A stretch of DNA of 64,000 nucleotides from Rhizophagus irregularis (Eukaryota > Glomeromycota > Glomeromycetes > Glomerales > Glomeraceae), in NCBI RefSeq assembly GCF_026210795.1, contig NC_089446.1:4059001-4123000 (forward strand), given 5' to 3'. The translations under genes and the position numbers were made by a program. Below the pieces are notes generated by a model that did not search any database, was not told the DNA's origin, and was given only the letters and a program-made list of their open reading frames with translations. Shown piece by piece: positions 965-61,668 of this stretch; positions within the stretch are counted from its first letter, which is position 1, and the number at the start of each line of letters is the position of its first letter.

Positions 965-3568
965 TTAAGCAATAATAAAGAATGAGAAACTCATTGTTCC
1001 AACCAAAAAACTTAATGCAATACTCCATATTGCATGATTTACTTCCAAGATAATAGTACTATTATTATCAATATCTGTAGGTTCAGGTGGTAGGGGCGAT
1101 GTTACTTTCTTTACGATGACAACTGTACTCGGTGGTATATATGTAGAAAAGGTTGTAGGCTCTCCTTTATCATTTGTCGTCGTTATGAACATTGTTGAAC
1201 CAGGGATAACTGATGTGAATGTTGTTATAAATGTTGTAAATGGTGGAGGATTATTAGCTTTTGCCTTGCCCCCATTATTGGGTAATTTAGTAATAGTTTC
1301 GTCGGGTACAGTGATAGTAGGTAATACTCCACTATAAATTTTTTTAAAATAAATAAATAAAAGTGAATACAAATTTTATACAGAATGAGATAAATTATTT
1401 AACATAATCAATTCTTATTCTTACTCATTAAAAACTTGAGATTGCTTTGCAGGAACGTCCTTTTGAGGATCCTCCACAGGAACTTGCTTCGGCACAGGGG
1501 GATTCGGATTAGGAGTATCTTGATTTGGTGCGGGAGGATCTTTAGGAGGGTCTTGTTTTGGTACAGGGTCCTTAGGGACATCTTCTGGTTTCGGTACATT
1601 AGGAATATCTTGCTTTGTTATAGGAACATCTTGTTTCGGAACATTAGGAGTATCTTGATTTGGTGCAGGAGGATCTTTAGCATCTTGATTTGGTAAAGGA
1701 GTAGGATCCTTAGGAACGTTCTCTTTTGGCACATTAGGAGTATCTTGATTTGATGGAGGAGGATCGTTAGGAGTGTCTTGTTTTGGTAAAGGTATATCCT
1801 TAGGAACATTTGGATTCGGAACGTTAGGAATATCTTGCTTCGTTACAGGAGCATCGGGAGCATCTTGTTTTGGCACATTAGTAGTATCTTGATTTGGTGC
1901 GGAAGGTTCTTTAGGAGTATCTTGATTTGGTGCGGAAGGTTCTTTAGGAGCATCTTGATTTGGCACAGGAGTAGGATCTTTAGGAGTATCCTGATTTGGT
2001 GTGGGAGGTTCCTTAGAATTATCTTGAGGAGTAGGAACATTATCCTTAGGGGCGTCTTTTGGAGTATCCTTGGGAACATTTTGTTTTGGTACATTAGGAA
2101 TATCTTGCTTTGTTATAGGAGCATCATCTTTAGGAGCGTCTTTTGGAGCATCCTTAGGTGTATCTTTTGGAGCATCCTTAGGAGCGTCCTTAGGAGCATC
2201 TTTTGGAGCATCCTTAGGTGCGTCCTTAGGAGCATCTTTTGGAGCATCCTTAGGAGCGTCTTTAGGAACATCTTGTTTTGGTATATTAGGAATATCTTGC
2301 TTTGTTATAGAGTCATCCTCGGGAACATCTTTGGGAACTTCCTTGAGGGCATCTTTTGGAACATCTTTTGGAGCATCTTTTGGAGCATCTTTTGGAGCAT
2401 CTTTTGGAGCATCCTTAGGAGCGTCCTTAGGAGCATCTTTTGGAACATCTTTCGGGGCATCTTTTGGAGCATCTTTTGGAGCGTCCTTAGGAGCATCTTT
2501 TGGAACATCTTTTGGAACATCTTTTGGAGCACCCTTAGGAACATCTTGTTTTGGTACATTAGGAATATCTTGCTTTGTTATAGGAGCATCATTGGGAGCA
2601 TCATTGGGATCGCCCTTGGGAGCATCTTTTGGAGCATCTTTTGGAGCATCCTTGGGAATATCTTTGGGAGCATCTTTTGGAGCATCATTAGAAGCGTCTT
2701 TAGGAGCATCTTTTGGAGCATCCTTAGGTGCGTCCTTAGGAGCATCTTTTGGAGCATCCTTGGGAATATCTTTAGGAGCGTCCTTAGGAGCATCTTTTGG
2801 AACATCCTTTGGAACATCTTTTGGAGCATCATTAGAAGCGTCTTTTGGAGCATCTTTTGGAGCATCCTTAGGAGCGTCCTTAGGAGCATCTTTTGGAGCA
2901 TCCTTAGGAGCGTCCTTAGGAGCATCTTTTGGAGCATCCTTAGGAGCGCCCTTAGGAACATCTTGTTTTGGTACATTAGGAATATCTTGCTTTGTTATAG
3001 GTGCATCCTTAGGAACATCTTTGGGAACTTCCTTGGGGGCATCTTTTGGAACATCTTTTGGAGCATCATTAGAAGCGTCCTTAGGAGCATCTTTCGGAGC
3101 GTTATTAGCAGCATCCTTGGTAGCATCTTTTGGAGCGTCTTTGGGAGCGTCCTTAGGTGCGTCTTTTGGAACATCTTTTGGAGCATCCTTAGGTGCGTCC
3201 TTAGGAGCATCTTTCGGAGAGTCATTAGCAGCATCCTTAGGAGCATCTTTTGGAGCGTCTTTGGGAGCGTCCTTAGGTGCGTCTTTTGGAGCATCCTTAG
3301 GTGCGTCTTTAGGAGCATCCTTAGGAGCATCTTTTGGGGCGTCTTTTTGAGCATCTTTTGGAGATGGAACATCATTTTTTTTTGGTGCAGGGGAAGCATC
3401 ATCTTTCTTCGGTGCATTATCTTGTTTGGGTATATCTTGTCGTTTTTGTAATGTTTTTCTACTCATAATTCGATTATTAGAAACCGATGAAGTTCTCGCA
3501 TTTGTAATTGTCAAAATCGATATCAATATTAACAAGAAAACTAAAGTCCATTTTTTACTTCTCTTCAT
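965..3568 (-). CDS. KDAP-repeat, predicted GPI-anchored cell-surface protein (two exons)
   Basis: Exon 1 is 3568-1425 and exon 2 is 1331-965; the 93-nt intron starts GTAAGA and ends TTTATAG. Phase closes (GA|T) and gives about 836 aa. Residues 1-24 are a basic then hydrophobic signal peptide. A Lys-Arg (Kex2-like) site follows near residue 42. The body is hundreds of residues of Lys-Asp-Ala/Val-Pro tetrapeptide repeats, broken at intervals by a module reading roughly ITKQDIPNVPKQDVPK. It ends in a Pro/Gln/Asp-rich stretch. Exon 2 supplies a Thr/Ser/Pro-rich stalk, a small-residue patch (DIDNNST) and a C-terminal hydrophobic segment, the pattern of a GPI-anchor signal. Exon 1 alone would end at an in-frame stop inside the intron and look like a soluble secreted repeat protein. 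The near-identical repeats suggest length variation between strains. The surface role is inferred; I recognise no enzyme domain. Confidence 0.75.
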
Positions 3569-19929: not shown

Positions 19930-20345
19930 CTCTTTTTTTTTAGGTAGTCGATTCATTGGATCTTTGGATGCGAGAATCGGCTACTTTTTTTTTAAAAAAA
20001 AAAATTTAGGCGGCCGGTTCATCGGATCTTTGAAGGTGGGAATCGACCATTTTTTTAAGGAAACGTTTCGTTATTTTTCTTTTTTTTTTAGGCGGCCGGC
20101 TCATCGAATCTTTGAAGGTGGGAAACGGCCATTTTTTTAAAAAACAATCTCTCTCTTTTTTTAACGAAACGGATATTAACGTTATTTTTTTTAAGCCGTC
20201 GGTTCATCAGATCTTTGGATGTGGGAATCAGCTACTCTTTTTTAAAAAGGATATTAGCGTTTCTTTATTTTTCTTTTTAGGTGGCCGGTTCATCGGCCGG
20301 TTCATCAGATCTTTGTCTTTTTTTTTTAACGAAACGTCTCATTTT
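19930..20345 (+). repeat. Array A: intron-like tandem repeat (about five units, 66-104 bp period)
   Basis: Each unit has a T-rich tract ending in AG, then a conserved GC-rich core (CGGCCGGTTCATCGGATC type). In units 2-4 a GTGGGAA donor-like site follows, then a spacer. Core segments are 20010-20035 (26 nt), 20092-20117 (26 nt) and 20196-20220 (25 nt). Cores with weaker ends start at 19944 and 20281. Spacers carry the inverted motif GAAACGTTTC or ATTAACGTT upstream of the T tract. The core sequence is shared by all units, so this is a true tandem array. Confidence 0.7.
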
Positions 20346-20429
20346 TTTTATAAGGACCGGTTCTTTGGGCCTCCTTTATTAATTAACCGTAACATTGTTA
20401 AATTTATCCCGCATCTCATCAATTTGTAA

Positions 20430-47021: not shown

Positions 47022-47168
47022 GTTTACGAATGAATTTCTTATCAAAAAAGTTATCTAAGATAATCAAATATCAATTACTATTTTAGAAAGTATACAAATT
47101 ACACCCGTTTTTTGATCATCCATCATTCTCTCAGTTTAATTTCTAGAATTCATAAAACTTTTAAAAAC
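47022..47168. promoter_or_regulatory. Shared promoter region between EF-Ts and the RUS-family gene
   Basis: The two start codons are only 147 bp apart on opposite strands, so the segment must carry both leaders and is a natural bidirectional promoter. Both products are, or may be, mitochondrial. No CACGTG or clear TATA box is visible. Confidence 0.5.
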
Positions 47169-49306
47169 ATGACTTTAAACTTTGTATGGAAAGCATGGGA
47201 AGGAGATATCTGGCGCAAATCTTTAAGGAATTTATCCTTTATAGCAAACACTTCTAGTAATACGCGACGAAATTTGAAATTGCAATACAGAAAGTTAGAC
47301 TCTCGAACTTTATATAATTCTAATAAAAATTCTAATGTACAAACTCATCAATCAATTCGTGTTAAACAACATACTGGTAGATTCTTACGTTCTAAACTAA
47401 CCATAATTAGTTTTCCTCCTGACGAAAAAAACGAATCATCCAAAATATCTAATGAACCGAAAATGACATACGAGCACTTACCATTACGTTCCATTAAAAA
47501 AACCTCAATTAATGACTTAATTTTAGAAGGAAAAAGACAAATGATTAAGGCATTTATGCCAAAAGGATATCCAGATTCAGTTACTAAAAATTACTGGGGA
47601 TTTGTAAAATGGCAATTCCTTCATAATGTAGCAGGATCAGTTACGGGAGGTAAGTTTAATTGAATGTCAAACTGTATAATAATAACAATAACGTTGATCG
47701 TTAGCTTTACATAGTTCTGTCGACGCAGTCCTTGCTATACGCTATGGGACTTGGAGCAAAGTCAATTCCTGTATGTCAAATCAAGTTACAATAGTGCAAT
47801 ATGCGGCTTTGTCGGAGAGAATAAAATATCTAATATATCAATTTCATCCACAAAGCTCGCTGCAGCATTGAATTGGATCATTAAAGATGGTTTAGGTCAA
47901 TTAGGCGGTGTAATTTATGCCGCGTTCATTAGTGACCGTTTTGATTCTGAACCAAAACGTCATCGCTTTCAAGCAACTGTCGCAATGCAAATTGCTTCAA
48001 TCTTGGAATTATTGGCTCCATTATGGCCGGGCTCGTTTTTGCTAATTGCTTCAATTTCAAATATAGGTAAATCTTGCGATGATATACATAAAGTAATATA
48101 AGAATTGTCAATTTAACAAATTTACTGCACATAGGTAAAAATATTGCATGGTTAGCTGGGTCTGCAACAAGGTAATTTGCACAAATATTTTATTACTTGA
48201 CATATTAAGGATATTTATTTAGTTTTATATTTATTTAGAGCACAGATGCATAAAACATTCGCGTTAAGAGATAAGTAAGTTAAATTCTAGCTACGATTTT
48301 GTTGCGGCAGGAAATTAAATTAACTGTCATTCGTTGTAATAGTTTAGGAGACATTACCGGAAAGTCAGGATCGCAAACTACGGCAGCAAGTTTAATAGGC
48401 ATGTTAGCTTTATTATAGTTTATTCATGTTTGTTTCCATACTTTAACGTTCGATTTTATATAAAATTAAACAGGAACGGCACTTGGTGTTGTCATAAGCG
48501 GTACTATCACCAAATATAATCCAGATATTACTGCTGCAACATCTGCCGTTCAACCTATTATTCCAATCTTTCTTGCGTTTGGTCCATTTTCATTTTTCAA
48601 CATTTATGGTAATTATAGATCTAGTCTCTATGTAACTACTAGTACCTTAAATGTCCCACGTGCAGAAATGATTCTATATGGCTTGTTAAATCAACTTGAT
48701 GGAGCAACAACATTGTCAAAGATCAAGTGTGACATTAGAGATCTTATATCGTCGCCAAAAAAAGTTTCATCTGAGGAGATATTTGTTGGACGTTATCATT
48801 CTCCATTTGAAATACCATTGGAAATAGAACCAGCTTTGCATCATTATACTTCTAAAAAGCATGTCCATGATTTGCATGCTGCGTTGAAACAAAAGGGGTT
48901 ACTTCACTCTGAGGAATACTTCCTTTTACATGTTCCTTATCACCATTTGTTTGGCAATTTAAGGAAAATGAAACGTCCTATACAACAAAATTCTCACCGA
49001 CATAAACACCATACTCAGCTGCCTGGTAGCAGACAACATCTTTCATTATGGTTTTCGCAAAATGCTAACACTAGAGACATGATTAAGGGATTTTGTCACG
49101 CATGTGCGATTAGACATGCTCTGGAATATGTCGATCCTGCTACGTCCGAAGATAAAGATCAAGTGTTAGATATTATCCGAGATACTCATATCTTAGTGGA
49201 GAATTCATTTGAGAGTCTTATTAGTGCACTTGAGAGTAAAGAGTGGGAAACTGAACATGTTTTCTTTACAGAAAGAGATGATGGAAGACTATTTGTTGAA
49301 AAATAA
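47169..49306 (+). CDS. RUS-family (DUF647) membrane protein
   Basis: There are seven exons: 47169-47649, 47715-47770, 47856-48066, 48135-48171, 48239-48274, 48343-48398 and 48474-49306. Phases close and give 569 aa. After a basic N-terminus, possibly a mitochondrial presequence, the DUF647 core begins at FMPKGYPDSVTKNYWGFVKW. It continues through VLSTQSLLYAMGLG, AALNWIIKDGLGQLGGVIYA, WLAGSATRAQMHKTFALRDN and LGDITGKSGSQTTAASLIGT. These are hallmarks of RUS1/RUSF1 proteins, multi-pass proteins tied to vitamin B6 and UV-B responses in plants; the molecular activity is not known. Intron 6 is GC-AG (donor G|GCATGT), needed to give LIGTALGVVIS. Exons 4 and 5 are only 37 and 36 nt. The C-terminal 200 residues have His-rich HRHKHH and two helical blocks. 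Confidence 0.9.
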
Positions 49307-49387
49307 AAATTCATTATTCGTAATTTATTGTAATTAAAGACTTATTTATAGTAACTACTGACTCATAATACGAGAAGATCGTCACGT

Positions 49388-49489: not shown

Positions 49490-50655
49490 ATGAGTTATAA
49501 TTCTGAAAAATCTCCGCTTATACACTTCCTTGTAGTATTAGCACTACTTCTAGTTTTGGCTTTACTTATCACGCCAGTTTTTTGGTCTTTCATTGCAATC
49601 ATCCACATTTTTGTTTCGATCCTTCAGCTTATAGCTAAGTTCTGTACGTCGTCTGTTGGAATATTATCGCTTATTGCAAAACGTGCTCTTAAAGCTGGCT
49701 CATCCTGTGCAAATACTAATGGCTATCGTGATGTTGTGAGAAATATAAATGGAGTACAAATACATTTAGTCCTCACAATTGGTGTTGGCTTCGGTGCGCA
49801 CAGATTCTACAATCTAGTTGAAGAACGGTACGTGTTGATATTTGTAGAAGTTTTTACTTCGAATTTTGAAATGACATAAATAACATGTAAAAATACTTAG
49901 CATTCAAATATTAAATTTAATAATAATAATCATAGTCCAAAATTCCGTCTTCAATTATATATACCCGATGAACCAGAAATCATGCCAAGAAAAGAACAAT
50001 CCGGGATGAGATTGAGTAAGTGAGAATAGAATTGAATTAATCATATAAGTGTTTCATTTAAAATATGTTTACTAATAAATTTTTTGGTCCTTATTATGAA
50101 TGATAAAGAGACGCAATCTCTACCCATTTATATTAGGTATAGACCACATGTGCCATCACCACTCGGACCTAATTATATCGTAGAATGGAAAGAATTAATA
50201 GATTTTTATCTTTCTAAAAGATACGCCTCGGGAATTTCAAATGGAACAAGATTGTCTACAACAGTAAGTCTTCGTTGATGATTTGTGAATTCTATTATTT
50301 TTTTCCTAAATTCTAATAATAGTGATGACATGTAGAAAGAAATTAGTGAATTAATCGTTCGATCTAACAAGAATACACGTGGCTTTAGCGAAAAGAGAGT
50401 TGACATCCACAATGTAAAGGAATTTGATTCGTAAGTTATAATTTGATAAGATTTCTATTATTTTAATCGACTTATTTAATCGATTTATTTTTTTTTAGTA
50501 TCGAGATTCCTGGAGTAAACCCTTGGATCAATGAGACAAGAAATAAGGTGGTTCAACAAAAGAGAAACAATTTAAGCCCCCAGGAGACTTTAAATGCGGC
50601 TCGCGCACAACTTAAGCTTCTATTAAGAAGTCACAAGAAGCGATGCAACTGTTAA
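49490..50655 (+). CDS. Unknown membrane protein, 274 aa
   Basis: There are five exons: 49490-49827, 49936-50015, 50109-50263, 50336-50430 and 50499-50655. Phases close. Residues about 10-55 hold one long or two close hydrophobic helices (LVVLALLLVLALLITPVFW and IAIIHIFVSILQLIAKF). A soluble part follows with GYRDVVRNINGVQIHLVLTIGVGFGAHRFYNL, then IRYRPHVPSPLGPNYIVEWK and a basic Cys-containing tail (HKKRCNC). I do not recognise the family. An upstream ATG at 49474 opens a short frame that overlaps the start and ends at 49500, which could lower translation. The acceptor of exon 3 (GATAAAG) has a poor pyrimidine tract and is the least certain join. Confidence 0.7.
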
Positions 50656-51030
50656 ACATAAATTTTCTCTGTTTATATATTTCGGAAAAAAAAATTATTT
50701 TCTCCGCAGAATATAATCTTGATAATTTAGAATAATATAGAATAGAATTTAGAATTCCCTTATAAATAAGAGTTGTTCTAGAGCTATATCTTTAAGGATT
50801 ATATCTTAAAAGTAGTTTATATTAATCATTAATCTTAATTCTTTATTACAATAGAGAGAAAAGTAATTAGTAATTTAATTAGATAATATTATAATATCAC
50901 GGGTAAAAACTTAGAGAAATTAAAAGTTTGAAAATAATACAAATTTCTAATAAGTAATTATATACTAGTATAAATTCCTAGTTCTTTTTCTATTATGGAT
51001 TATAATTGTACAAAAAACTTTTTTTTTCTC
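50656..51030. other. AT-rich 3' region of the 274-aa gene
   Basis: Nothing is recognised. The word GAATATAATC/GAATAATATAG recurs, but no clear array forms. Confidence 0.35.
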
Positions 51031-51090
51031 TGTTTGCAGGTTCCGGGATGGAGGAAAAAAAAATCTCAATTTTTTTTCTCCATCTGCAGG
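51031..51090 (+). repeat. Two isolated intron-acceptor-like units
   Basis: TTTCTCTGTTTGCAG|GTTCCGGG is followed after 48 nt by TTTCTCCATCTGCAG|GTCCGAG. Both are pyrimidine tracts ending in CAG with related downstream words. They look like a remnant or seed of the same kind of repeat as array B, 0.9 kb further on. Confidence 0.4.
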
Positions 51091-51940
51091 TCCGAGTACA
51101 TGACAATTACCATTATCAATGATATAATGAATTCTCGACTTACCGAACTTTTTTTAGAAACCGGTTCCATATTATTCAAAAAGAGAATGTAGGATTGCTA
51201 ATATTTCTCGATCAGTTTTTCGTCCGGGATCCGAACTTGATAAATGCGCAGTATCATTCAAAAAACAACGTCACGGGAACAAGTAATAACTTCCCACATA
51301 TACGCAAGCTTTTGCGTGTATTAATAATAAGAGTATCCGTGATCTGATTTTCGTGATGAATTATAATAACGTAATTTCCCCAAAGATTTATTCCAAAAAT
51401 CGATCCTTAAACCCTATAAAAAATCTGATCCGTGTTTTATCTTTCCATGTTAATATTTCCGTGAATGTATCATTTTAATGGAATTTATAGCCATAAATCA
51501 TGGAAATTTTCATCTCGCTAATATCATTTTCACGGAATTTTTATGGAAGACACGGAGAAATAACGGAAATATTCGGATAAAAATTTTTTATAGGGAAACC
51601 CACTAAACCCACTACAAATCATATAAAAAGGTGAGGCATTATTTAGCGAATCCATTTATCCGCCTTGTACAAATAAAACAAAAAGCGAAACATTCAAACT
51701 TACCATTATTTACATCACATATCAACAATCGAATAAACAAGTATAATCTGCAAAGTAAACATAAGGTATATTGGTTTTATAGTTCGGGTTAGCTTCTTGA
51801 AATGCCATCACAATGCAAATCGATTTCCCCGCCTATATAGATGTTCCAAAACAAAACGGACATATTACTTGCTATATATGGGCATTTCGATCTTCACCAG
51901 AAAATCTTTGACTACAAATTCCGCATTTTTTCTTTTTTTT
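51091..51940. other. Non-coding stretch before array B
   Basis: No gene is seen. ACGGAA/ACGGAAT and CGGGATCCG words recur around 51220-51600, suggesting diverged repeat sequence. Confidence 0.3.
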
Positions 51941-53345
51941 ATTTGAACAAAATGTTGACTAACGTTTCGATTTTCTTTTTTTTTTAGGGTTTTCGGATAT
52001 CTGGATGGAATTTCGAAGGTACCTCTTCGAAATTTGCATTTTTTTTTCTTTTTTTATTTGAACGAAACGTTGATTAACGTTTTGATTTTCTTTCTTTTTT
52101 AGGGTTTTGGCTTTCTGGGCGGCATTTCGAAGGTGAAACTTCGAAAAAAAATTTTTTTTTATTTTATTTTAATGAATGTTAACTAACGTTTGTTCTTAAT
52201 TTTGTAGGTCCAGAACACTAAAGTGCGGGGTTCCGATTTGGCTAAATCTTCGTATTTTCGAAACTTAATAAAAAAACATTAATTTTAATGTTTTTTATAT
52301 TTTTTTATAGGAAATTGGCTCCAAATTGGCCAATCCTATAGGTAAAGTTTCAAAGTTTCTTCTAACTTTGAAACTTTCATAAAAAACGTTTAATTTTAAC
52401 GTTTTTTATATTTTTTATAAGAAATCGACTCTGAATTGGCCAATCCTATAGGTAAAGTTTCAAAGTTCTTCTAACTTTGAAACTTTCATAAAAAATGTTT
52501 AATTTTAACGTTTTTTATATTTTTTATAGGAAATCGGCTCTGAATTGGCCAATTCTATAGGTAAAGTTTCATATTTTCAAAACTTAATAAAAAAATGTGT
52601 ATTTTAACATTTTTTAATTTGTTATTATTTTTTTTTGCAGGGAAATTGACTCCAATTTGGATGCCAGAATCCCGCAGGTAAAGTTTTGATTTTTGAAACT
52701 TTTTGACAAAACTCAATAAAAAACATTTAATTTAATGTTTTTTTATTATATTTTATTAATTTTTTTGTAGGGAAATCAGCTCCGATTTTGGTATTACAGA
52801 AAGGAGTATGTCGGGTCAGCGTGATGAGTAGAGTATGGTGACATTTGGCAGTGAGTGCTACGGAAAGGAGTATGGTCGGGTCAGGGTGATGAGTAGAGTA
52901 TGAACTCCTATGTGACAGTTTACTCAAGTGATAAATAACACGACGGGCCAAACACGTGATTTGGAGTGGGCTGAGATGCTATACATCACCTGAGTATGGT
53001 TCACACTCCACCGCCAAATGTCACCATACTCTACTCATCACCCTGACCCGACCATACTCCTTTCTGTAATAACGTTTGGCAGTGTATAACATAAGGGGTG
53101 TGAACCATACGCAGGTGATGTATAGCATCTCAGCCACTCCAAATCACGTGTTTGGCCCGTCATGTTATTTATCACTTGAGTAAACTGTCACATAGGGTTC
53201 CATACTCTACTCATCACGCTGACCCGACCATACTCCTTTCTATAGCACTCCTCCGATTTGCCATCTTACAGGTAACTTTTTGATTTTCAAAACTTGAAAC
53301 TTAAAAAAAATGTTATTTTAACGTTTTTTCTTTTTTTTTTGTAGG
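51941..53345 (+). repeat. Array B: intron-like tandem repeat (eight units, 103-130 bp period)
   Basis: Units have a T-rich tract plus AG, then a 30-31 nt core, then a GT donor-like site. Cores are 51988-52018, 52103-52132, 52311-52341, 52422-52451, 52530-52560 and 52641-52677. A weaker unit starts at 52208, and a split unit starts at 52771 and resumes at 53251. Later cores share AATTGGCCAATCCTATAG, followed by GTAAAG. In the spacer after 52341, AAAGTTTCAAAGTT and AACTTTGAAACTTT form a perfect 14-bp stem. A second stem (AAAAAACGTT / AACGTTTTTT) holds a TTTTAAC word. The first two units place the GT in the loop of a TTTCGAAG / CTTCGAAA stem. Period and core length are constant although sequence drifts. 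Confidence 0.8.
52789..53250. mobile_element. 462-bp fold-back insertion with 9-bp target duplication
   Basis: It is flanked by CTCCGATTT at 52780-52788 and 53251-53259. The inside is a compound palindrome. A 60-bp arm at about 52792-52849 is inverted at 53015-53072. A 160-bp block at about 52851-53010 is inverted at 53097-53250. Both share the terminal words AGAAAGGAGTATGGTCGGGT and GATGAGTAGAGTATGG. The 9-bp duplication and long inverted repeats suggest a Mutator-like or fold-back non-autonomous element, with one copy nested in another. It encodes nothing. Confidence 0.75.
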
Positions 53346-53404
53346 AAAATCATCTACAATTTTAGAAACGAATGGGAATTAAGGAATTTAACATATACTG
53401 GATT

Positions 53405-53620
53405 TGTTAGAAAGTTGGGATGATTTTTGGTAAAATTGCTTTAAATGTATATATAATATTTTAAATTTCAGAATAAAATTTACTGTAATTTGCAATACAA
53501 TTCAGAATAAATTTTACTATAATTCGAAATAAATTTTGCTACAAATTGGAATAAATTTTACTACAATTCAGAATAAATTTTTACTACAATTCAGAATAAA
53601 TTTTACTATAGTTGGGGACA
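53405..53620. repeat. Short tandem repeat, unit about 22-27 bp
   Basis: The unit ACAATTCAGAATAAATTTTACT recurs about six times between 53469 and 53615, with variants CAAATTGGAATAAATTTTACT and ATTCGAAATAAATTTTGCT. Confidence 0.6.
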
Positions 53621-54855
53621 TAACAAATCATCAAGTTGTTTCAAATTGAGATTTTAAAAAATCACGTGATATATATAACACTAATTTGCAATTGGTTAAA
53701 AATCAAACCATATCAGGAAATGTTTTACTTTATTAATCATCAATATTTTCAAAAATAAAATCTGGAACAAATCTTTCACAGCTTTTTTTCTTTTTTTGAC
53801 AGTGTTATGCTTGTCTCTTTAGTCGTGCCATAGGAAAAAATTCTATGATCTGCATTACCTCTCAGTCAGTCATAGTTCTGGCCTAGTAAATTATAGAATT
53901 TTGTCAATTTCTGGCCAGAATTAGATGTTTCAAATCCTACTGTTTATTAAGAAAATACCGAACTTTGCAGGCTAATAACTTTTGATTTAGATCACCAATC
54001 AGGATAATCTCAACGTCATTTTGTAGTTTAAGTTAGTAACAATTAAACTATGTTGAGTTATTTTAAATATATATATCCAAAATATTTTTATTAAATTTCT
54101 AATTTGAACAATTTTATTTAATGAATTGTTGTATCCCAAACCATATAATTTAAAAAATTTTGTCACAAATTTACCATAATTTAGAATAAATTTGGTAAAT
54201 TTATGAATATATTTTTTTAAACAATTTGGATTAAAAATACTAAGCAATTCAGATACAATTTGAATATTCTGATCGGCATCAATCAGCCTGCCAATTGGAA
54301 CTTTACCTAAATTAATAAATCGGCCATCTTTATCACCAAATTTAGCTTAAAATCAGACATCCAATTTCTAGCTGATTTGGACTATTTTGACCAGTGATAC
54401 TTTGAGAGCGTCTTGAATCTATAAAAAAAAGAATGAAAATATTAGCAAACGTTTTATTAAGTAAAATTAAAGAAAGTTTCTAACTCTCCTACTAAAATTC
54501 TCACACATTTAAAAGCTGAAAAACTAAAAAAAAAATAGTTTTGAAATTAGTTTATTAAGACAAAACAAGGAAATTAAAAACATTAAAAACTTACTGAAAT
54601 ACCATATCCAAAGAATGAAGTGTTACCTAAAAAGAAGGAAAAGTGAATGACGAAATAAAAGGGACGAAAGAAAAAGATGAAAAGCGAGAGGGAAAGGGAG
54701 ACGAAAGAGTGAGTATAAAAGGGGAAGATAAAAGAGTGATGAAGGAGTGTGTAAAAAAGTAAAGTGAGTAAAAAGGGGAGAGACGAAAGTGTAAGAAAAA
54801 TTTTATTTTATTTTATTTTATTTTATTTTTAAAATATAGACACGACTGAAGCATA
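53621..54855. other. Non-coding region with purine tract and TTTTA microsatellite
   Basis: No gene is supported. A strongly purine-rich stretch (GA/AGGG words on the plus strand) runs about 54620-54800 and is followed by a TTTTA pentanucleotide microsatellite at about 54801-54830. Confidence 0.45.
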
Positions 54856-55134
54856 CACTGGTAAAAAAATGGTCTATCCTACACATATCCTACACATATC
54901 TTACATATATCGGGTACTCAAAATGTAGAAAATCATACACAAATAATACACATATCATACACATATCGGGTACTTATATATATAGTATACCTATCATAGT
55001 CACGATATATGTATGATATATATATTAGTACCCGATATGTGTATGATATGTGTATTATTTGTGTATGATTTTCTACATTTTAAGTACCCAATATGTGTAA
55101 GATATGTGTAGGATAAATCATTTTTTTACCAGTG
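54856..55134 (+). mobile_element. 279-bp palindromic MITE, CACTG termini, copy 1
   Basis: It begins CACTGGTAAAAAAATGG and ends with the inverse, CCATTT-type sequence then CCAGTG. It is flanked by the 3-bp direct repeat ATA. Nearly the whole element is one inverted repeat made of CCTACACATAT and ATCGGGTACT words. CACTG ends and a 3-bp target duplication fit the CACTA (EnSpm) superfamily; a Harbinger-like origin is possible. It has no coding capacity and must rely on another element's transposase. Confidence 0.8.
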
Positions 55135-55614: not shown

Positions 55615-55869
55615 GAATCTTCTCTAAAAAAAAAGAGGGGGATGGGGTCAAAAAAAAAATTACAGATTTTTTTTTACAGTATTATTGAGCGTAAAAATTG
55701 AGGGGAGGAGTATTTATTATATTAATTTTTTTTACAATATTAAAAACTTTTAAAATAAGAGAGGATTTTATATTCTTTTTTTAAATGTAAAAAAGTAACT
55801 ATTCTTTATTTTATATTTTAGTATTATTTTCAATTATACACATTGCTTTTTTTTCATTTGAAGTTTACC

Positions 55870-57300: not shown

Positions 57301-58711
57301 AATAAAATAAAATTTTATTAGATATAATATTGTATTTAGTTGTAAATTATTATAATTATTAATTTATAATTGATTAGTTAAATTTTGGATTATTAATAAT
57401 ATAAAATAACTTAAACTAACGAACACGATAAAAAATAGTGAAATTTGGATTATAACTAATAAAAAAAATAGTTTAAACTGATGAACGTGAATAAATAGTA
57501 AAATTTGGATTATTAATAATAAAAATAGCTTAAACTGATGAACGCAATAAAAAATAGTAAATTTTATAGATAATAAAATAGTCTATAAATAGTATATTTT
57601 TAGCCTATTTTATCTATATAAGTAATCAATTATAATCACAAAAATAAATATTCTTTTACATTTAATTTTTTAAATATAATGGCTAGACAAAAAAATACTA
57701 ATTCCAGTAGAATATAGTGAACCACATAGTTCAGGAGATAACTTGGAACTTAATAATTCTGAAGATAATAGTGATATATGAAAAACAACAGATGAAAAAG
57801 TGTTATCATCAATTTTATCTCGTATTGCTGCTTTAGAAAAAGAAAATAAAGAACTAAAAAATGAAGCAAATAAAAGAGTTGAAAAAGATAGTAAAGATAA
57901 TGATATGGCTTCTAATCAGTATTAACTAATATTGTAGGTAAGAACGTTCAAAAGAATGTAAAGAAATGTGTACTAGAAGTATCAGACCAATCAAGTTCTG
58001 AAGAATCAGATAATATAGAGGTATATAATATTCTAAATATAGTGTATTCTGTATATAACTACATATTTAAAATAAATCTATACTTTTTAATTATTATATA
58101 TCTTAAGGATGAGGAAGATATTAATGAATCTGGTCAGATCATTACTACGCCAATTCCAAAGCCACTAGTAGGAAAAGGCCAATTTGCAAATTTGCACTTA
58201 AATTTAAATTTAGAAAAAAGTGTATATGAAAGCTATAGGGTAAATACTAATAATAATACAAGTTAATAAAATTAAGTAATAAATACATAGGAATTATTAT
58301 AATTATAATAACTATATACTTCTTTTTTTTTGTATTTTCAAACTGCTTTTTATGATCTTATTGATCGTTATGCTCCAAATGAAGTTCAATATAAACACCT
58401 CGACAAAAAAATTAGAGCAGCTATTATTCGTAAATTTAAAAAGAATAATCCGCACTTCCCACCTTGCATTGGCGATTGGGCTTTAACTTATCTTATGCGC
58501 CATAAGATAAATATAAAACGTATGTATTTTATAAAGCAAAACACTCAAAAAAATTATCAAAATTTTTCTGGGTTCGAAACTCAAGCCCCTTTTAAGCTAT
58601 ACATATATATGCAATTTACTTTTTTACCTTTTACAACTTTTATTTTAATAGAATATAACCATCGCCATCAAAACAAAAAAAGTGTAAACAATAGTATTAA
58701 AATAAGAGGTA

Positions 58712-60158
58712 CAGTCCCCTCTCGATATAACGAACCCTAGGTTCCAGCTGATCAGGGCTTCGTTATAAGCAACTTCGTTAACACTATAACGAATTATTCG
58801 GTATTGTATAACGAATTCTTTGGTATAGGAATATCGGTTATACAGATCATATGACTTGTTGATCTGATTACCGATAATTTAACATTTTTTTTAATCTTTT
58901 TTTTATAGGGGTGCTTTCTAAACTTCAAAATAGATGCCTAGAATGAGAAGTAAGTGGGAACTGGGGGTTTTTTATATTAATTTCGTTTAAGAACATTTAC
59001 TGATGTTCTTTTTTTATTTTTTTATTGTAGGGAACTTCCTGGACTTCGAAATGGACGCCTGAGACGAGAAGTAAGTGGGGAACTCAATTTTTTTTATTTA
59101 AGAACATTTACTAATATTCTTTTTTTATTTTTTTATTATAGGGAACTTCCTGGACTTCGAAATGGACGCTTGAGACAAGAAGTAAGTGGGGAACTCAATT
59201 TTTTTTATTAATTTCGTTTAAGAACATTTACTAATGTTCTTTTTTTTATTTGTTTAAGGGACTTGATTCAAAGTAAGGGCTTTCTTTAAGAACTCGAAAT
59301 GGACGCTTGAGACAGTTAATGGGACAACTTTCATTTCTAATTCGTATTCGAAAGGACAGACTAATGTTCTTTTTTATTTTTTATTGTATTTTTTACGTTT
59401 TAAATGGACGTTTAAGTTGACAACTCAATTTTTTCTTTTTAATTTCCTAAGTTCTTTTTTATTTTTTTATACATACGAAGTAATGGGACAACTCAATTTT
59501 TTCTTTTAATTTCGTTTAAGAACATTTAATAATGTTCTTTTTTTATTTTTTTATTATAGGGAATGCTTCCTGAAGTGTTCTATATAAAAATGTTTATTAT
59601 AATTCCTTTTTTTTGTAGGAATGCTGTTTAACAATAACTGACTATATAATAAATAAATTATTAATGATATATTAATTTAACTAGGAGTGTCCTTACCCCT
59701 GTGATAAATATAAATTAATAACAATTCACATCGAATCCTAATACAACTGAATTAATGTAAATTAATGTAATTCTGCCTAAATATTAAATAAAATAGCCAG
59801 AATTATTAATCCTGATACGATCCTGATACAATCCTGATCCATAATTTAAATATAAAACACAGGGGTGATATTTAATGTCATAATGCATCAATATTTATTA
59901 ATAATTACATTTAATTATAAACTATAGAAATTCTTCGTTATAACTGAAAAAAAATTCGTTATAAAAAAAATCCGTTATATCGAGAGGCATTTTTATATAA
60001 GAAATTCACACTTTACTTCGTACTATGTTATACGGTAAATAAATAGTAAACTTCGTTATATCAAGGTTTTTTTCATATTTAAAATCGGTACCACACTGTA
60101 TGATCCGTTATATCGTGTTATTCGCTATATCGAGGTTCGCTGTAGAGAGGGGTGACTG
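58712..60158 (+). mobile_element. Tigger/pogo-like non-autonomous element (1447 bp)
   Basis: It is flanked by TA at 58710-58711 and 60159-60160, the target of Tc1/mariner-type elements. The left end reads CAGTCCCCTCTCGATATAAC and the right end, inverted, reads CAGTCACCCCTCTCTACAG followed by GCGAACCTCGATATAGCG. Such ends are typical of pogo/Tigger elements. Internal copies of TTCGTTATA and CGTTATATCGAG near both ends look like transposase sites. No transposase frame is present; the middle is array C. It sits at the 5' splice site of the host gene's intron. Confidence 0.75.
58870..59640 (+). repeat. Array C: intron-like tandem repeat inside the Tigger-like element
   Basis: Cores are 58909-58949 (41 nt), 59031-59070 (40 nt) and 59142-59181 (40 nt). 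Each is preceded by a T tract plus TAG and followed by GTAAGT. The core word is CTTCCTGGACTTCGAAATGG and then GACGCCTGAGACGAGAA. Spacers contain AAGAACATT and AATGTTCTT, a 9-bp stem whose loop shows TACTAAT or TACTGAT, close to the branch-point consensus TACTAAC. Weaker units follow around 59258, 59430 and 59561. The period of the clean units is 111-122 bp. Confidence 0.8.
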
Positions 60159-61138
60159 TATATCCTAACAAGTTTTATAACTAATATTTTATAATATAGT
60201 AGTAAACTTACTATATATTTAGACAAAGTAGATGATAAAAGAAATCATGCTCCAAAGAATGATAAAAACGCTGGTGAAAGTTCTATAAAATTAAATACAA
60301 GTAAGTTGTTATTTATCTTTAAAATAAAATTATATTATTTTGACACGTACTTATTATTTATTTAATTATAATAGGTAATGATTTTAATGATATTAATCAG
60401 AAAATCAAAGAGCTTTTAAAAAAATGGGAAGCTTTGCTTGTTGATGCAAGAAAAAAGAAGCAAAAAATAACAGATTTAATTTCTATAGATGTGCAAGATG
60501 GAAGGAATACTGCGGATATATTGCCATTTAATGCAGATGAACATGAAGATTCTGATATATCACCACTACTTAATAACAGAGATAACCAAGAATTAGAACT
60601 TTCTGGAAGTATTCTTGACGAACCTCAACTATCAAAAAAAGTAGCAAAAAAATCATATGTATTAAAGATGTTTATCTGGAATATGAAAAGTTCATCATAT
60701 GGTGATAATATTAACTATTATTTAAAAATAACAGGAAGAGTAATTTGAAGCTAAATAAAACTGAACTTCAGAAGTCTTCAAGAATTAATAATAACAAGTC
60801 AAAAACAAAGAATTAAATGATCTTCTATAAATTTGTAACACGTTAGCAATATTTGTACGTAAAGACGTAAAGTCATAAAATATACATGTAGTGACACATA
60901 TATTAAATGTAATAAACTACAATATACAAATAGTAAGTAATATTTGTACATATACTAGTGAACATATAGTAAACACTATTTTAGCCATAATTTGAACATA
61001 ATTTGTTTAAATTGGGCCCATTTTTCTATACATTTGATACTCAAAATATGGATATAATATGTATATTCAGTAAACATTCATATAAATATTATTCATTGTA
61101 CATTTGCTATACATAAAGTGGACAATATTTTTTTATAG

Positions 61139-61668
61139 GGTATAAAGGATGATTTTCTGGAACAATAGGCGAACTACATGTATATGCAAACGTTTCCATA
61201 GCTGTTTGCAATATTTCACTATCGGATTCTCTTAATACATATTTACTGAAGATCACTGGTAAAAAAATGATTTATCTTACACATATCTTACACATATTGG
61301 GTACTCAAAATGTAGAAAATCATACACAAATAATACACATATCATACACATATCGGGTACTAATATATATATTATACATATATCAGGTACCTGATAGGTA
61401 TACTATATATATAAGTACCCGATATGTGTATGATATGTGTATTATTTGTGTATGATTTTCTACATTTTGAGTACCCGATATATGTAAGATATGTGTAGGA
61501 TATGTGTAGGATAGACCATTTTTTTACCAGTGGATGCAGCGTAATTTTGTGCAAGATATACAAAGAGCAAAATTACGAACCTTTGCAGCAACTAACATTC
61601 CATCTGGTGCAAGCTCTTGACATACAAGGTTATTTTTTTTACTTGAAAGGTCAATTTCAGTAGTATTA
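61139..61668 (-). pseudogene. Cys-rich zinc-binding repeat-family gene fragment, interrupted by a MITE
   Basis: Reading on the minus strand from 61668, it encodes HNTTEIDLSSKKNNLVCQEL, then APDGMLVAAKVRNFALCISC and TKLRCI. The 279-bp MITE follows. The same frame family resumes as FSKYVLRESDSEILQTAMET, FAYTCSSPIVPENHPLY. After that the 5-kb element begins. Upstream, beyond the 1.3-kb TIR element, NLLYG continues the reading from 62970. The CxxC...C spacing suggests a zinc-binding module. The gene has been split by at least three insertions. Confidence 0.55.
61254..61532 (-). mobile_element. 279-bp palindromic MITE, CACTG termini, copy 2
   Basis: It has exactly the length of copy 1 (54856-55134) and is inverted relative to it. 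Its right end is the reverse complement of copy 1's left end over more than 70 nt. It is flanked by the 3-bp repeat GAT. It interrupts the coding frame of the Cys-rich gene fragment, so the insertion is younger than that gene's duplication. Confidence 0.85.

Follow-up and report, generated by a model that had tools for sequence, protein, structure and literature searches.

The window analysed here is a stretch of 64,000 nucleotides of Rhizophagus irregularis DNA with a GC content of 28%, in which DUF3712 and Msb1/Mug8 Pfam domains, both indicative of fungi, were found. A RUS-family gene (47112-49330, Pfam UVB_sens_C) lies 2.6-4.8 kb upstream of the tandem array studied here, array B (51941..53345, plus strand), and by hand annotation two of its exons measure just 37 and 36 nt, so that mini-exons seem to occur in this genome; one of the later intron borders of this annotation, near 48.4 kb, is ambiguous. 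Elsewhere in the window a long 12/36-bp tandem repeat (2125-3363, found by TRF) lies inside a minus-strand ORF of 715 codons without a Pfam match, and blocks of 11-bp repeats (TATCCTACACA and GATATGTGTAT types), by eye partly inverted copies, lie at 54870-55070 and 61270-61510.

Array B consists of about 8 tandem units of about 100-130 bp each, and TRF reported a 115-bp unit at 51926-52134 and a 109-bp unit at 52260-52578; both TRF and unit alignments thus show head-to-tail copies with a unit size in the tens to hundreds of bp, as is usual for a minisatellite. The original prediction described a fixed layout of T-tract and AG, core and GT, and this layout could be placed by hand in all 8 units (9 T-tract-AG sites, 8 cores and 8 GT sites between 51987 and 53344), with the qualification that sites were picked because they are AG or GT, that one acceptor of the nine reads AAG and that unit 3 offers three GT options. 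The first three cores are of 31 nt (51988..52018, followed by GTACCT), 30 nt (52103..52132, then GTGAAA) and 44 nt (52208..52251, then GTATTT, one of the three options), and cores 4 to 7, each followed by GTAAAG, are of 31 nt (52311..52341), 30 nt (52422..52451, the core with the AAG acceptor), 31 nt (52530..52560) and 37 nt (52641..52677), all on the plus strand. Core 8 is split into a left part (52771..52788) and a right part preceded by a second target copy (together 53251..53271, then GTAACT), and the last acceptor of the array is at 53344. The spacers between cores are 59-93 nt long and fall inside the range of ten hand-annotated gene introns in the window (55-139 nt).

The interruption of core 8 is a fold-back TIR insertion of 462 bp (52789..53250, with no strand assigned) made of nested inverted repeats, whose 117-bp arms are 94% complementary. 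The 9-bp target duplication CTCCGATTT is found on both sides of it, at 52780 (52780-52788, the end of the left part of the core) and at 53251 (53251-53259, followed by the right part of the core at 53260-53271), and we take a duplication of this length to fit a MULE-type element. As core lengths stand (31, 30, 44, 31, 30, 31, 37 and 501 nt), 5 of the 8 are of 30-31 nt; when the insertion is removed, the flanks are joined and one target copy is kept, the empty-site core 8 is exactly 30 nt, as had been predicted, and the claim that most units keep a core of 30-31 nt then holds for 6 of the 8, the exceptions being those of 44 and 37 nt. Such near-constant length is predicted by shared ancestry through tandem duplication, and core lengths in the other arrays of the window differ from those of array B (40-41 and 26 nt).

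The cores of units 4-8 align among themselves, as do cores 1 and 2 with each other, while core 3 gave no match at z > 3 to any other core, and by eye the donor-side segment of unit 3 seems to have been deleted. Cores are thus homologous within units 4-8 and within units 1-2, so that core and spacer were copied together, by tandem DNA duplication and not by separate insertion of introns. This bears on the reading of the arrays as introner-like elements, that is, structured introns that would multiply locally and persist as tandem copies, each with some of the adjoining exon. We consider this reading quite improbable, as exon-like sequence is here duplicated along with the spacer, which self-inserting introners would not do; in its favour are the occurrence of three arrays in 64 kb with a common hairpin-T-tract-AG end (a model built on arrays B and C finds array D at E 0.01) and the structured or symmetrical introns that the accessible part of PMC8469720 describes as fungal introner-like elements.

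Hairpins are placed in array B at recurrent positions. In units 1 and 2, as predicted, the GT sits in the loop of a TTTCGAAG/CTTCGAAA stem (52009..52034, 10 bp, and 52125..52146, 8 bp, both purely Watson-Crick, plus strand), and 14-bp Watson-Crick stems lie in spacer 4 (52344..52377) and spacer 5 (52454..52486). A hairpin on the T-tract side is found ahead of all nine acceptors, with purely Watson-Crick stems in units 4 (52271..52296, 11 bp), 5 (52379..52409, 12 bp), 7 (52590..52615, 9 bp) and 8 (52718..52743, 10 bp), and with stems that include G-U pairs in units 1 (51950..51967, 7 bp), 2 (52063..52084, 9 bp), 3 (52171..52194, 10 bp) and 6 (52488..52518, 12 bp) and ahead of the last acceptor (53305..53329, 11 bp), all on the plus strand. 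The prediction that every spacer holds one 14-bp and one 10-12-bp perfect stem was therefore overstated, since the former is present in 2 of 8 spacers and a T-tract hairpin of 10-12 perfect Watson-Crick pairs in 3 of 9 units. Counting Watson-Crick pairs only, 4/9 units reach at least 9 bp and 5/9 at least 7 bp; with G-U allowed these become 8/9 and 9/9, and the G-U stem exceeds shuffles of its own segment (p < 0.05) in 6 of 9 array B units (units 1, 2 and 7 fail) and in 3 of 4 units of array C. A branch-point-like TTAAC or CTAAC is seen by eye inside the T-tract hairpin.

These hairpins clearly exceed chance. To the 15 Watson-Crick stems of the window (at least 8 bp, at least 2 G-C pairs, loop 3-10) array B contributes 5, all within its 848 bp to the left of the insertion (0.2 expected) and none within the 96 bp to the right; array C contributes 3, where 0.17 would be expected, and array D contributes none, expected numbers being taken from the window density with the arrays counted in. 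With G-U pairs allowed the total for the window rises to 77, with 6 in the same 848 bp of array B (1.0 expected), 5 in array C (0.9) and 3 in array D (0.5). The 5 Watson-Crick stems of array B are of 3 kinds (the GT stem of units 1 and 2, the 14-bp stem of spacers 4 and 5, and one T-tract hairpin), and even when kinds are counted, 3 where 0.2 would be expected is an unusual number (Poisson 0.001). The best stem upstream of a T-tract-AG site reaches at least 9 bp in 11 of 19 sites of arrays B and C compared to 4.4% of 180 others (Mann-Whitney p 2e-6), the controls being from both strands with array D among them and the array sites being mutually dependent. For whole spacers, the gain in folding energy over shuffles was strong in 2 of 8 array B spacers (z -9.0 and -7.4), marginal in one, and strong in none of 3 array C spacers; the 9 gene introns showed no gain. 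As the two strong spacers are near copies of each other, whole-spacer folding was dropped as evidence for structure, and the stable secondary structure of a whole element, a mark of introner-like elements, is limited in array B to these two spacers, with the third marginal.

The original prediction turned in part on whether stems are more conserved than the rest of the unit, and the two stems differ in this respect: the T-tract hairpin is somewhat better conserved (mean pairwise identity 0.76 in units 4-9, a value raised by its A and T runs) than the core (0.68, units 4-8), while the first stem together with the donor is the least conserved segment (0.61, units 4-8). The arms of the T-tract hairpin co-vary weakly. 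It has two variable pairs, both of which, with G-U counted, are kept in 9/9 array B units, a result reached in 2% of arm-shuffling trials (5%, exact, within units 4-9 alone); for arrays B and C together the variable pairs are kept in 12 of 13 units, which arm shuffles reach in 0.2% (the stem is broken in one array C unit, C2), and of the 90 cells given by all ten pairs of the hairpin in array B, 86 are paired where shuffles average 79.4, all of these statistics ignoring the kinship of units and using arm registers set by the best stem, which favours pairing. With relatedness uncontrolled and registers so chosen, this co-variation is suggestive only. Four of the 9 array B hairpins are rescued by G-U pairs (T over G), which favours pairing in RNA over DNA copying as the explanation. 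Decay of CpG was considered as a source of paired arm changes. The observed/expected ratio of CpG is 1.02 for the whole window, which shows no depletion, and rises to 1.61 in the part of array B to the left of the insertion and to 1.79 in array D, so that methylation-driven decay is not an obvious driver.

Splice sites were compared with those of the genes using a donor matrix built from the ten hand-annotated introns of three neighbouring genes (the RUS-family gene, EF-Ts and one further gene). When all 5492 GTs are ranked, array B donors come within the top 3-33%, compared to 0.1, 15, 2.6, 2, 0.6, 1.2, 3, 0.7, 8 and 27% for the gene donors when each is left out of its own matrix. The average array B donor is thus the weaker one, but the ranges overlap (0.1-27% for genes), a difference of degree, and weak donors alone would be compatible with splicing. 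A G at position +5 is absent from all 8 array B donors but present in 7 of the 10 gene introns (Fisher p 0.004 when units are counted and 0.026 when donor types are, in a post hoc comparison). Acceptors are AG, having been picked as such, and intron-like lengths are found throughout array B; at least 13 pyrimidines in the 17 nt ahead of the acceptor are seen at 9/9 sites in array B and 5/5 in array C but at only 1/9 gene acceptors, suggesting that the long T-tract is a mark of the repeat and not of splicing in this genome generally. Five of the 7 uninterrupted cores (31, 30, 44, 31, 30, 31 and 37 nt) are not multiples of three, and no open frame runs across concatenated cores 1-7, stops being present in all three frames, unlike what a coding micro-exon gene would show. 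An SP7-like effector gene (a repeat-rich secreted protein of arbuscular mycorrhizal fungi) was likewise set aside, as array B keeps no frame, and the accessible part of PMC3886924 is silent on exon structure. A search of the window against Rfam at gathering score gave no match, so that structured RNA genes (snoRNA, SL RNA) were set aside too; a leader of the SL type would in addition require a single unvarying exon, whereas the cores differ both between and within arrays.

Taken on these sequence features, array B may possibly, if doubtfully, be a spliced array of mini-exons, in which exon and intron were tandemly duplicated within a non-coding or pseudogenic transcript, the hairpins would shorten each intron and present branch point and T-tract, and the 30-nt cores would be skipped or joined. 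AG and GT can be placed in every unit with spacers of intron size between them, the branch-point-like motif stands in the hairpin (by eye), arm pairing is preserved with G-U, the donors of array B overlap those of the genes in the leave-one-out comparison while those of array C are GTAAGT, and the RUS-family gene provides a precedent for exons of 37 and 36 nt. Set against this are the missing +5 G and frame-breaking cores, the low conservation of the donor and first stem, T-tracts that are atypical of gene introns here, and the upstream side of unit 1, where inspection by eye found no clear donor, the nearest GTA-type site seen being at about 51766. On balance splicing of array B does not appear to be favoured, its donors arguing mildly against it. 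The proposal that selection or a copying mechanism acts on a splice-like architecture, and that array B is not a plain satellite, therefore survives in part: hairpins are enriched, and the T-tract hairpin has the highest conservation of the segments and weak co-variation between its arms, but selection on splicing finds no support in donors without +5 G (0/8) and a lost frame.

Array C (58880..59640, plus strand) shares the layout of array B and has 3 cores of 40-41 nt and 4 positions for a T-tract hairpin, a 9-bp stem (G-U allowed) being retained at 3 of them. Its donors are all GTAAGT and rank in the top 0.2% of all GTs (3/3), a quality that is hard to ascribe to chance, and array C is a better place than array B to look for splicing. 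It lies inside an element (58710-60160) with the terminal inverted repeats and target duplication of a DNA transposon, its ends being TACAGTCCCCTCTC and TACAGTCACCCCTC, which resembles the pogo/Tigger type. Further near-copies of the CGATATAACG motif occur in this element, which by eye seems to be intronic to a plus-strand gene whose exons lie near 58.4 and 60.2 kb. The position of array C is the point in favour of regarding all the arrays as passengers or subterminal repeats of non-autonomous TIR DNA transposons. For array B, however, the fold-back element is inserted into the array and does not surround it, and no convincing TIRs were found in the flanks searched around arrays B or D: with words of fewer than 4 G+C skipped, the best pair around array B (50655-51960 against 53345-54900) had 2 mismatches in 14 and that around array D (19294/20960) had 1 mismatch in 14, with unmatched flanks in both cases. 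This transposon reading is accordingly held to be decidedly unlikely.

Array D (19930..20370, plus strand) consists of T-tract-AG units with folding cores (-22.8 for the first core, then -5.7, -15.9 and -10.3 kcal/mol) and GT sites that rank low, at 28-55% of all GTs, yet carry a +5 G (GTGGGA, 3/3). A covariance model built from arrays B and C and searched in the window gave array D as its best new match (E 0.01), with three more array D sites at E 0.04, 0.19 and 0.61, but non-array sites score too (for example 55621-55680 on the minus strand, E 0.017), the rest being scattered and weak. By comparison of coordinates the 67 matches of this model include no gene intron of the ten, a result which, with the scoring of non-array sites, is a further point against introner-like elements. 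In-window BLAST with the low-complexity filter off aligned 51961-52089 of array B with 20062-20191 of array D at 64.8% and also linked array B with array C; as unrelated AT-rich places score equally or higher, these links were not relied on. At 51020-51092 two T-tract-GCAG sites enclose a 16-bp hairpin, the left arm of which repeats the T-tract in inverted orientation. Together with the three arrays this pair indicates that hairpin-bearing tandem units ending in T-tract and AG are characteristic of this window, whether or not they come with good donors.

Our preferred reading, to which we give a probability of roughly 0.46, is that array B is a hairpin-rich minisatellite which arose by tandem duplication of an intron-like segment, the cores and donors having since drifted while the hairpin was kept; most likely, then, we see a tandem repeat in decay and not a structure that functions in splicing. 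The segment would have been AT-rich, with an A-run, a hairpin over TTAAC or CTAAC, a T-tract ending in AG and a core of about 30 nt, and was probably taken from an intron-exon border, an origin that would explain why array B retains its splice-like look. It would have multiplied by repeated local tandem DNA duplication, after which cores and donors drifted and the hairpin on the T-tract side stayed complementary, whether through fold-back of nascent strands, with one arm copied from the other, or through RNA folding that maintains the pairing. The inverted T-tract copy at 51 kb is what fold-back copying of DNA would leave, and so favours the DNA route, and array D supports the minisatellite, since its T-tract-AG units are likewise in tandem while its GT sites rank low. 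Against the minisatellite stand the donors of array C, the overlap of array B donors with gene donors, the +5 G of array D, the rescue of stems by G-U pairs and the intron-sized spacers. A wider proposal, that structured mini-introns multiply genome-wide together with a piece of exon to give non-coding transcripts of many tiny exons, with pairing of the branch-point hairpin kept at the RNA level, is judged from these sequences to be improbable.

If the arrays were spliced, introns and mini-exons would be spreading jointly as tandem copies, a way of gaining introns for which the usual evidence is a single event; if they are unspliced, hairpin T-tract minisatellites in AT-rich fungal genomes can mimic micro-exon genes and mislead gene prediction. 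Among the papers listed from one open-access collection on micro-exons, introners, satellites and minisatellites in Rhizophagus and other fungi, and on exonization of minisatellites, none describes such arrays in its title or opening abstract. A 21-base pattern of the array had one match, in a gammaproteobacterial MAG, where by our own estimate about one is expected by chance; three patterns gave no match in viral contigs, nor did megablast in plasmids.

Hairpin-forming AT-rich minisatellites have tandem units of about 100 bp, divergent copies and inverted repeats inside the unit, and array B resembles them in all of these features, but differs in its T-tract-AG ends, in the GT that follows a core of similar length and in the presence of three arrays with a similar end in 64 kb. 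Minisatellites within introns of C. elegans are, by the title of PMC4039745, linked to alternative splicing and to multi-exon splicing decisions; array B differs from these in that the putative exon is contained in the unit itself and in that it belongs to no known gene. Structured introner-like introns and symmetrical introns, or (stw)introns, are described from fungi in PMC8469720, as far as its accessible part goes, and array B is like these in being intron-sized and hairpin-forming with splice-like ends; it is unlike them in being tandem, with its core co-duplicated, and in matching 0/10 of the annotated gene introns in the window. Gain of introns through tandem duplication is the subject of the accessible part of PMC4974935. 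From such gain array B differs in its many copies, its mediocre donors and its lack of a known host reading frame, and it resembles it in that copying across an intron-exon border brings the acceptor, T-tract and branch site along.
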